Positions 30,878 through 34,104 of a stretch of DNA of 52,781 nt are shown here, in pieces. The notes under the pieces are model-generated. The model did not search any database and had not been told where the DNA came from. It saw only the letters and a list, made by a program, of their open reading frames with translations. Origin of the DNA: an uncultured Granulosicoccaceae bacterium (lineage in GTDB: Bacteria > Pseudomonadota > Gammaproteobacteria > Granulosicoccales > Granulosicoccaceae); contig CALIMV010000187.1 in NCBI GenBank assembly GCA_938045275.1, positions 1 through 52,781 on the forward strand, in the 5' to 3' direction. Positions within the stretch are counted from its first letter, which is position 1, and every line of letters starts with the position of its first letter. A program made the translations under genes and the position numbers.

Positions 30878-32080
30878 ATGCATTTAAAAGAAACTATCGG
30901 CACTATCGGGCATCTGTGCTATTGCTCCAACATACACCCTGGCGAAAGTTGGCAAGATGTTCGGGCCAACTTAACCCGCTATATTCCAGAGATTCGCCAG
31001 GCGCTACATCCCGATGGCGATTTTGGCCTTGGCTTACGATTGTCCGCAGCCGCAGTAAATGACCTGGCTTCGCCCGAAGTATTAGCTGAATTCAAAGCTT
31101 TTCTCGCCGAATCAAACAGCTATGTATTTACCATCAACGGATTTCCTTACGGGCCGTTCCACGGAACGCGTGTTAAAGAAGATGTGTATTTACCCGACTG
31201 GAAGGATACTGAGCGCTTGCGCTACAGCAATCAGCTCGCCGATGTGTTTAGCGAGTTCTTACCTGATGGACAAGTTGGCAGCATCAGTACCGTACCTGGT
31301 GCATTTAAAACATCTGTTGAAAAGACAGATGATGTGACGATTATGGCGAAGTATTTTGTCCAGCATGTTGCACATCTTGTACGCCTGGAACGTAAAACCG
31401 GAAAATCCATCATTCTGGCAATTGAACCGGAACCGTGCTGTTTTCTTGAAACCGTCGACGAGTCGATCGACTTCTTTCACAATCACTTATATTCACAGGC
31501 AGCTGTGAAGCAATTAGGCAATGAACTTTCAACGTCTGCAACTGACGCAGAACAACTGCTGCACAAGCATTTAACCTTGTGTCTCGATTTGTGCCATGCT
31601 GCGGTGGAATTCGAAGACTGCAACACTTGTATTGATGCATTGGACAAAGCTGAAATTGAAATAGGAAAGCTACAGATCAGTGCCGGTCTCTTATTACCGG
31701 AGGTGAACAAAGACAGCGCGCGTGTACTTGAACCCTATATAGACAAGGTATATCTGCATCAAGTAATAGAAAAAAAGGACGGTGTGATCAATCGCTATAA
31801 GGACTTACCCGATGCACTGGAAACCCTGGAGGAAGATGGTGCCAGTCGAGAATGGCGTGTGCATTTTCATGTCCCAATATTTCATAAAGATCTGGGTAAC
31901 TTTTCCTCCACCCAGTTCTTTATCAGTGAAGCCCTTGCCCGACATAAAGTCAAACCGATCAGCGAACACCTTGAGGTGGAAACTTATACCTGGAATGTAC
32001 TACCACCTGAGCTACGTAACATCAGCGTGGAAGAAGCAATTACCCGTGAGCTGGAATGGGTAGTGCACGAGCTGTCATGA
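30878..32080 (+). CDS. eboE: Metabolite traffic protein EboE (TIM-barrel sugar isomerase-like)
   Basis: A 400-residue protein of the xylose-isomerase-like TIM-barrel superfamily. The N-terminal motif GHLCYCSNIHPGESW is highly characteristic of EboE. Further conserved parts are GLGLRLSAAA, AIEPEPCCFLET, LCLDLCHAAVEFED, VYLHQVIEK, HFHVPIF and EVETYTWNVLP, many of which provide His, Asp or Glu that could bind a metal. The chemistry is unknown; isomerisation or epimerisation of the EboD product is a reasonable guess. The stop overlaps the eboC start as ATGA, so the two are translationally coupled. Confidence 0.92.
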   Translation: MHLKETIGTIGHLCYCSNIHPGESWQDVRANLTRYIPEIRQALHPDGDFGLGLRLSAAAVNDLASPEVLAEFKAFLAESNSYVFTINGFPYGPFHGTRVKEDVYLPDWKDTERLRYSNQLADVFSEFLPDGQVGSISTVPGAFKTSVEKTDDVTIMAKYFVQHVAHLVRLERKTGKSIILAIEPEPCCFLETVDESIDFFHNHLYSQAAVKQLGNELSTSATDAEQLLHKHLTLCLDLCHAAVEFEDCNTCIDALDKAEIEIGKLQISAGLLLPEVNKDSARVLEPYIDKVYLHQVIEKKDGVINRYKDLPDALETLEEDGASREWRVHFHVPIFHKDLGNFSSTQFFISEALARHKVKPISEHLEVETYTWNVLPPELRNISVEEAITRELEWVVHELS

Positions 32081-32946
32081 ATTTCAGCACCGTTTTAAAA
32101 CTAGGCCGTGTATCGAATCTGCCAACGGTATGGAGCAACACGCTCGCAGGCGCTGTGCTTGCAGGGCTTCAGCCGATACCATGGTCCATTGCGCTTTTGC
32201 TTCTGGCTATGTCGCTTGCTTATGTTGGTGGTATGTTTTTAAATGATGCTTTTGATCACGAAATCGACGCTGAAGAACGGCCAGAGCGCCCTATTCCCTC
32301 GGGCCTGGTTACTGCCTCTAGTGTTTTTACCGCTGGGTATTCGATGTTGGCAGTCGCCGTGTTGCTCTGCGTGATCACGGCGATGACTACGCAAGGTAGC
32401 CTGTTGTTCTCCCTGATTGCAAGCGTATTACTTGTAGCATCAATTGTTCTCTACAACGCTTGGCATAAAAACAACCCGATCAGCCCATTTATCATGGGTC
32501 TATGTCGCGTATTTGTTTATATATCCGTCGCGTATGCTTTCATGCACTCACCGCCAGCCACTGTGTACGTGGGAGCTTTGTGCATTCTGTGTTTTCTTAT
32601 CGGTTTGACCTATACAGCGAAGCAGGAAAGCCTTGGTGAGGTGAAAAATCTCTGGCCGCTGGTTTTTCTGGTGGTGCCGATTTTTTACGGAATATTTAAT
32701 CTGCAAAAAAATGTCGCAGTGTGGTTACCGCTGTTATTGCTAGTTGCTTGCGTATTGTGGGCAGTGCACAAGGTTCGGCGACGTGGTGCTGGTGATATTC
32801 CTCGCGCAGTCGTTACGATGATTGCCGGTATATCACTAGTAGATGCTGTACTGATCGCAACAGTAGCCGGTTTACCGTTGGCACTGTTTGCTATAGCTGC
32901 GTTTTTTCTGACCTTGTTATTACAACGCTATATTGCTGGTACATAA
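32077..32946 (+). CDS. eboC: EboC, UbiA-like prenyltransferase family membrane protein
   Basis: A 289-residue protein with about eight membrane segments. The first Asp-rich motif of UbiA prenyltransferases is present (NDAFDHEIDAEERPERPIPSG), preceded by RVSNLPTVWSNTLAG. At the position of the second Asp-rich motif I see TAKQESLGEVKNLWP, with Glu but no DxxxD. It may bind a prenyl-type substrate in the membrane without acting as a standard transferase. I use ATG 32077, which overlaps the eboE stop; the ORF-track start at 32056 lies inside eboE. Its TAA stop forms part of the target-site copy of an inserted element. Confidence 0.88.
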   Translation: MNFSTVLKLGRVSNLPTVWSNTLAGAVLAGLQPIPWSIALLLLAMSLAYVGGMFLNDAFDHEIDAEERPERPIPSGLVTASSVFTAGYSMLAVAVLLCVITAMTTQGSLLFSLIASVLLVASIVLYNAWHKNNPISPFIMGLCRVFVYISVAYAFMHSPPATVYVGALCILCFLIGLTYTAKQESLGEVKNLWPLVFLVVPIFYGIFNLQKNVAVWLPLLLLVACVLWAVHKVRRRGAGDIPRAVVTMIAGISLVDAVLIATVAGLPLALFAIAAFFLTLLLQRYIAGT

Positions 32947-32947
32947 A

Positions 32948-33134
32948 CCCTGGCGTTGCATAAAATTTCAAGTGCAGAAGCATATAGAGCAGTATATAAG
33001 GCGTTGCACGGAGTATTTACTGGGTTGAGCCTAGTCACTCTAGGTGAGACCCAGGAAATACGAGTACAGCGCCTTAGATGCTGCTATAGAGGCAGCGAAG
33101 CGATTCTGGGCTGCAATTTTATGCAACACCAGGG
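32948..33134. mobile_element. MITE-like 187-bp palindromic element at the eboC stop codon
   Basis: The ends are inverted copies: 21 of the outer 23 bases match (CCCTGG, one mismatch, GTTGCATAAAATT, one mismatch, CA). TAAA flanks both sides (32944-32947 and 33135-33138), consistent with a 4-bp target duplication, and the left copy contains the eboC TAA. The interior is also imperfectly palindromic, centred on the hairpin at 33014-33060 (CTGGGT...CCTAG TCACT CTAGG...ACCCAG), so the whole transcript could fold into one long hairpin. No transposase fits in it. The 84-codon ORF across it is not a credible gene. Confidence 0.75.
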
Positions 33135-33288
33135 TAAAGTAATGCTTAGACGACAAGTCAGCGGAGTATCCAATCGGAATAGAGGGGCGCCTCGCTGTAC
33201 CACCCGTTGAACACTATGCCGGCGCTAATCCAATCTCCAGTCGGGTATTCATTTTATGGCGGGAGCACCAGTCAGATGTACTTTCAGC

Positions 33289-34104
33289 TTATTCATGACA
33301 ATTAACCAGCTCCCCTATCACTTTGCGCCCGCGCAACATTTCATCAGGGCTGCCAAAATTGCACATATAATGATTTTTAAATCCGGCTTTTTCGAGTAGA
33401 TCGAATGTGTTAGCAAAATCAATAATGCCTTCACCTGGAAACAGGTGCGCTTCATACTTGCCATGATTGTCAGCCAACCGAACTTCACCACAACGATCAA
33501 TTGGCAGCCTTTCGATAAAACCGTCGATACCTTCGGGTTCCAGCGTAGCGTGGTTGATAGTGTAGGACCAGCCCAGATGAGGAGAATCTATTTGATCAAA
33601 ATAGTACAGACACTCTTCCACGGTGTGGGGCAAATACTGCACTTCGGCAAGTTCAGGCTCGCGATTTAAATTTTCAAGTAGCAGCTTTATACCGACTTTC
33701 TCTGCGTAGGCAACCGTGCGTTTCAACCGCTCCAGACTGGCGTGCATCCGCCGCTCCCGGTCACCAAAGTGATACCCACCATGTACCACTACCCATTCAG
33801 CGTTTAGCTGAACCGCAAGATCGGAATAGGTTTGTAAATACTTATCTACAGCTTCTGATACAAACGGTGATATTTCAGCGGTATTGACTCCTGATAAGGT
33901 GTGCAGACCCAGATGAATCCCATGCGCCTCGCACCTGGTTCTGATGGTGTCACAAGCCGTCTGATCAAACCTGTCCATATTATTCGGCGCTACATCGAGC
34001 TCCGCCTGTACATAGCTAATGCCATTATCAATAGCCCACTCTACCGCACTCTCCAGTGACATTTTGGCTTGAAGGTCTATCCCGATTCTATCCATTAGGC
34101 TCAT
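33289..34104 (-). CDS. Sugar phosphate isomerase/epimerase family TIM-barrel protein
   Basis: A 271-residue xylose-isomerase-like barrel. The opening IGIDLQAKMSLESAVEWAIDNGISYVQAELD, the HLGLHTLSG strand, WVVVHGGYHFGDRERR, LLLENLNREPE (Glu ligand), LGWSYTINHATLEP, VRLADNHGKYEAHLFPGEGIIDF (DNHG, PGEG) are standard for the family, and metal-binding residues look intact. The start could be 34104 or the ATG at 34095. It lies next to the ebo cluster but is divergent from the TRAP operon, whose substrate (perhaps a sugar acid) it may process. Its relation to Ebo is only positional. Confidence 0.85.
   Translation of the reverse strand: MSLMDRIGIDLQAKMSLESAVEWAIDNGISYVQAELDVAPNNMDRFDQTACDTIRTRCEAHGIHLGLHTLSGVNTAEISPFVSEAVDKYLQTYSDLAVQLNAEWVVVHGGYHFGDRERRMHASLERLKRTVAYAEKVGIKLLLENLNREPELAEVQYLPHTVEECLYYFDQIDSPHLGWSYTINHATLEPEGIDGFIERLPIDRCGEVRLADNHGKYEAHLFPGEGIIDFANTFDLLEKAGFKNHYMCNFGSPDEMLRGRKVIGELVNCHE

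Follow-up and report, generated by a model that had tools for sequence, protein, structure and literature searches.

In the stretch of DNA analysed here (52,781 bp, hereafter the window), a 187-bp palindromic sequence abuts an eboC-like gene at its stop codon. This sequence is very probably a type II MITE, non-coding and palindromic over its full length, that owes its movement to an IS1380-family (DDE) transposase acting in trans and that landed at this stop codon. The family to which it belongs is new, and small transposons of its kind are well known; the element is real, mobile and of the IS1380 type, and there is a good explanation for its location at the stop codon. Sequence comparisons establish that the family is dispersed in multiple copies with target duplications, that two other copies have empty sites, and that IS1380-family insertion sequences carry matching ends. 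The host of the window copy is a Granulosicoccus-like marine bacterium, and to the MITEs already known the family adds one from marine host-associated gammaproteobacteria whose likely mobiliser (IS1380) can be named. It also offers a simple account of how small transposons come to lie exactly at stop codons, namely a TNNA target that recreates the TAA, together with the avoidance of genes and promoters.

A palindromic element at the end of an eboC-like gene

The features of the element and of its two neighbouring genes are collected in Table 1. The inverted-repeat arms, taken one base further out on each side (32947-32970 and 33112-33135), are 24 nt long and 92% complementary with two mismatches, in agreement with the extent of the element and the ends of about 23 bp that a sequence-only reading of this DNA had proposed. 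That reading had also described a TAAA on each side, the left one overlapping the TAA of eboC, and both points are correct, the TAA being the one that ends the eboC-like open reading frame. Its further claim of a self-complementary interior is borne out by folding, as the whole element forms one hairpin (−98 kcal/mol). A 203-nt stretch folds at −100.9 kcal/mol, whereas its dinucleotide shuffles give −51.9 ± 4.3 (z = −11.3), and none of the 200 folds as well. One part of the earlier description has to be changed, since the native 3' region of the gene was said to have been replaced by the insertion, and it is instead displaced by 191 bp and still present after the element. No transposase gene lies inside the 187 bp; the only listed open reading frame there is a mechanical 84-aa frame starting at TTG, which exits the element.

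Table 1. Coordinates of the element and neighbouring host genes in the window
Feature	Position	Strand	Remarks
EboC-like UbiA-family prenyltransferase ORF	32056..32946	+	Host gene, outside the element
Left 4-bp target-site duplication copy, TAAA	32944..32947	+	The eboC-like ORF stops at 32944-32946 (TAA)
Palindromic MITE, 187 bp	32948..33134	.	25 of the 45 full family copies are exactly 187 bp
Left terminal inverted repeat, CCCTGGCGTTGCATAAAATTTCA	32948..32970	+	Family consensus CCCTRGYGTTGCATAAAATT
Self-complementary interior	32971..33111	.	89% of cells remain paired across 39 copies; beyond the ends, no similarity to the IS1380 interior
Right terminal inverted repeat	33112..33134	-	Reads CCCTGGTGTTGCATAAAATTGCA on the - strand
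Right 4-bp target-site duplication copy, TAAA	33135..33138	+	
Sugar isomerase/epimerase-like TIM-barrel ORF, convergent neighbour	33289..34104	-	Host gene, outside the element

The best NCBIfam match of the open reading frame that ends at the element is EboC, at 125 bits and under the curated cut-off of 250, while the frame upstream of it is EboE (456.7 bits, over the cut-off of 250). Together these two frames span positions 30878-32946 and share 25 bp (32056-32080).

The insertion can be pictured as follows. An IS1380-family transposase would recognise ends of the CCCTRGYGTTGCATAAAATT type and duplicate 4 bp of the form TNNA, and the target at the eboC-like gene would have been TAAA, that is, the TAA stop plus one base. 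The predicted locus before insertion, with the 187 bp removed, reads GGTACATAAAGTAATG. The duplication would have left a stop codon on the upstream side, so that the gene was unharmed and the insertion could be tolerated.

Dispersed copies, varying target duplications and empty sites

The genome that carries the window (G000; 499 contigs, 82% complete) holds three full copies, the other two lying on contigs C116 (86% identity) and C2 (80%), and a further end match, a contig-end fragment, lies near the edge of contig C146. When 57 genomes of related taxa were searched, matches to the element were present in four, this one included, all of the same genus, and were absent from the other 53. The same-genus matches number 14 in G008, 13 in G026 and one in a third genome. 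Many of the copies in G008 and G026 are cut by contig ends, as expected, because repeats break assemblies. Across GTDB species genomes, the exact end pattern CCCTRGYGTTGCATAAAATT was found in 66 stretches. Chromatiales bacterium (ex Bugula neritina AB1) accounts for most of them, and the others lie in two Granulosicoccus MAGs, a Granulosicoccaceae MAG, a Desulfobacteraceae MAG and two other gammaproteobacterial MAGs. Copy numbers range widely among these hosts, from about 40 in the Bugula neritina AB1 Chromatiales genome to one in the Granulosicoccaceae MAG. The element had no match in the plasmid and phage collections, and the exact end pattern was not found in viral contigs.

Of 47 rows collected, two were duplicates, which leaves 45 distinct copies with both ends. 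Perfect 4-bp duplications flank 24 of these copies and are of 11 kinds, and 22 of the 24 have the form TNNA (TAAA, TATA, TTAA, TTTA, TAGA, TCAA, TCTA, TTGA and TTCA). In about half of the copies the duplications are imperfect, and the mean identity of the copies within the Bugula symbiont genome (G057) is 88%; judged by these two features, many copies are old. The multi-copy search that the sequence-only reading had proposed thus came out in favour of a MITE, with dispersed copies and varying TNNA duplications.

Two copies of genome G008 have an empty site in a relative. For copy L010, the flanks are joined without the insert in G020 (80% over 523 bp), and for copy L016 they are joined in G007 (71%). 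The eboC locus itself is too divergent for such a comparison, as the nearest eboC orthologue is only 59% identical at the protein level. When the positions of the copies were compared with those of eboC, none of the 22 other genomes of the genus with an eboC match carried a copy there. The element is therefore multi-copy and absent from eboC in these 22 genomes, the opposite of a single-copy sequence conserved at this site in all relatives.

Two variants of the family deserve mention. Copies L010, L015, L016, L017, L018 and L022, all from the Granulosicoccus genus, carry GC-rich inserts of 14-15 nt of the GGGGCCGCC type, which occupy mirrored places on the hairpin arms, sometimes on one arm only (alignment columns 59-73, 117-130, 150-163 and 190-204). 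In Granulosicoccus g1_MAG_00002, a 50-bp mini-version (L100, 2307-2356) consists of barely more than the two ends, with flanks CATA and TATA.

IS1380-family elements with matching ends

The search for an insertion sequence with the same ends, which had also been suggested, led to the IS1380 family. In another gammaproteobacterium (L066), the end CCCTAGCGTTGCATAAAATTTAA directly adjoins the last codons of an IS1380-like open frame; the fragment is a 56-aa C-terminus whose best family is NF033539 IS1380 (E = 0.0095, profile positions 389-418 of 419). Searching the class with this fragment recovered full-length IS1380 elements that end in CCCTATCGTTGCATAA / CCCTACAGTTGCATAA. The proteins of two of them, L151 and L152, score 244.6 and 232.9 bits against the NCBIfam IS1380 cut-off of 180 and also match Pfam PF13701 DDE_Tnp_1_4. 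Element L151 is 1,630 bp long with ends CCCTCCAGTTGCATAAG / CCCTATCGTTGCATAAG and the duplication TCAA/TCAA, L155 is 1,635 bp long with the duplication TTAA/TTAA and an interrupted open reading frame, and L152 has an intact transposase frame. The 187-bp family thus shares its ends with IS1380-family insertion sequences and has target duplications of the same 4-bp TNNA form as L151 and L155. Between the window element and the IS1380 elements the similarity is confined to the ends, and the interior does not derive from IS1380 as that of a type I MITE would; since only the ends match, the element is a type II MITE.

The reduction of IS1380 elements can be followed in two other sequences. L160 (1361-1708, 348 bp) and L153 (1360-1620, 261 bp) are internally deleted IS1380 elements in which both ends and the C-terminus of the transposase survive. 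They are intermediates on the way from an insertion sequence to a MITE, and MITEs usually arise in this way.

A second palindromic MITE family is present in the Desulfobacteraceae MAG JAUWMY (G061; L060, L126, L129 and L131). Its members are 188-200 bp long, have the end CCCTAACGTTGCATAAAATTTGA and perfect TNNA duplications, and differ from the Granulosicoccus-type family in an unrelated interior. The end of this second family matches the end of the IS1380 element L152 at 20 of 22 positions.

Among the MITE-carrying genomes, no IS1380 transposase was found in G000 (82% complete, 499 contigs) or in G008, and the one in G026 is truncated, so that these three assemblies lack a complete candidate for the present-day mobiliser. 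The G026 sequence is a contig-edge remnant of an IS1380-type transposase C-terminus (L133, 1-99, on G026:C285; 70% over 33 aa). In the Bugula symbiont, an IS1380 relative of the right subgroup is assembled only partially (50% identity, 299 aa) and ends TATA|CCCCCAGGTTGCATTAAA. Other IS1380-type open reading frames found in the host genomes with NF033539 were rejected as partners, as their surroundings lack the right ends, with the exception of that on C133, which belongs to the right subgroup. In plasmids, the IS1380 C-terminus had no match.

Several known systems resemble the family described here. Prokaryotic type II MITEs such as Coxiella QMITE2, Correia, RUP and MITEAba12 are likewise short and non-coding, with terminal inverted repeats, target duplications and hairpin-folding transcripts, and most of them lie between genes; 3' untranslated regions are also the main location of QMITE2 (PMC10969869). 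The 187-bp family differs from them in its sequence, its end motif, its TNNA target and its IS1380-type ends. IS1380 is absent from a 2024 review of prokaryotic MITEs, and our text searches of open-access papers turned up no description of an IS1380-linked MITE. IS1380-family elements (NF033539; PF13701) have ends of the form CCCT..GTTGCATAA and, in L151 and L155, 4-bp TNNA duplications like those of the MITE, but they are about 1.63 kb long with a transposase, whereas the MITE is 187 bp long without one and has an unrelated interior. The ends of piggyBac begin with CCC, and its 4-bp TTAA-like targets are similar as well, a resemblance only, as piggyBac is eukaryotic and strict for TTAA while the 187-bp family uses TNNA. 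IS1380 transposases count among the distant relatives of piggyBac in prokaryotes according to PMC10140906, and IS1247, an IS1380 element from Paracoccus, is listed with a 5-bp duplication (PMC3281130). ERIC and REP/BIME are also palindromic intergenic repeats able to sit at gene 3' ends, with sequences unrelated to the 187-bp family; REPs are linked to tyrosine (RAYT) transposases and not to DDE transposases (PMC2817692).

These data bear on two other explanations of the element. If the sequence were an inverted repeat that arose by chance, or simply an ordinary terminator of eboC present in one copy, only its position downstream of a gene would be accounted for; against this stand copies at other places that are 80-90% identical and agree in length, ends and duplications, the shuffles that never fold as well, and the lack of a copy at eboC in relatives. 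The multi-copy result refutes this explanation, which we regard as next to impossible. It is also very unlikely that some other DDE transposase (from the IS1634, IS4 or IS5 families, for instance) moved the element and that the likeness to IS1380 ends is convergence. The missing IS1380 transposase in G000 and the weak profile similarity shared by the families of the clan speak for such a mobiliser, but the 23-nt pattern-fitting end directly against an IS1380 C-terminus in L066, the match at 20 of 22 positions between the ends of the second MITE family and L152, and the agreement of the target duplications in length and pattern argue for IS1380. An IS1380-family transposase is thus the likely mobiliser of the 187-bp family, with movement in trans suggested by the shared ends.

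Gene 3' ends and the hairpin

We used mechanical open reading frames for the gene context of the copies and the TNNA sites of the same loci for the expectation. Between gene pairs, 14 copies are convergent, 19 tandem and one divergent, against 6.0, 16.8 and 11.2 expected (convergent excess p = 0.001; divergent deficit p = 2e-5). The copies avoid divergent (promoter) intergenic regions and favour the 3' ends of genes. Six of 48 element-stop distances are 0-1 nt after the stop, compared with 3.3% of the TNNA sites within 350 nt (p = 0.005). The simplest explanation of this concentration at 3' ends is that insertions in genes and promoters were removed, with the overlap between TNNA and stop codons contributing. 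Targets of the TAAA, TAGA and TTAA type may hold a stop codon that the duplication restores; therefore, the stop codon is the first place outside the gene where an insertion does no harm, and insertion exactly at a stop is a recurrent and explicable outcome.

The hairpin raises the question of a role in RNA. Pairing was counted on the structure of the window copy across 39 copies, the RNAalifold consensus of the gapped alignment being poor, and 89.1% of the cells are paired. Changes on both sides of a pair were found in 14 pairs and 31 cells (9.4 and 14.1 in shuffles), also above slid versions, and the covariation score is 0.105 against 0.02-0.05 for slid partners. Pairing is kept across the copies; relatedness inflates such counts, and inverted repeats can persist at the DNA level. 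No intrinsic terminator was called in the element, where the stem is followed by TAAAGTAATG and no U-tract, and no promoter was called in it either. Rfam families gave no match above the gathering score, with a sub-threshold STnc450 only, outside the element.

One could propose that the element has been co-opted at gene 3' ends to work as RNA: it would be part of the eboEC mRNA, or of the transcript of the convergent gene, and its long hairpin would block 3' exonucleases or stop convergent read-through. The great stability of the hairpin, the conserved pairing with its double changes and covariation, and the strong 3'-end and convergent bias of the copies all point this way, as do the preference of Coxiella QMITE2 for 3' untranslated regions and a 3'-end ERIC that alters Yersinia transcript levels (PMC10969869). 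However, processes at the DNA level can keep inverted repeats, selection against hits in genes and promoters predicts the bias by itself and explains the positions equally well, and the element has neither a U-tract after its stem nor a terminator call. The effect of such elements may also be destabilising, and published MITEs in 3' regions include cases of destabilisation (PMC10969869). We therefore consider a co-opted RNA role unlikely; the stabilisation of the eboC transcript that the sequence-only reading had suggested is possible. The Granulosicoccus-type and G061 families have in common their ends, their length and their whole-length palindromy. We could speculate, though we hold it doubtful, that palindromy over the full 187-200 bp or so is itself selected in MITEs mobilised by IS1380, either because the transposase uses a folded DNA substrate or because a 3'-end RNA hairpin that comes ready-made turns insertion at a stop codon into a benefit.

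Apart from the MITE at eboC, copy L010 touches a stop codon in another way. On our reading of the frame, its element sits a few codons inside the frame that is conserved in G020, and the MITE end appears to give the stop (CCC TAG) of the gene that was hit (1501-1506, G008:C55), while the relative G020 keeps a slightly longer, uninterrupted frame.
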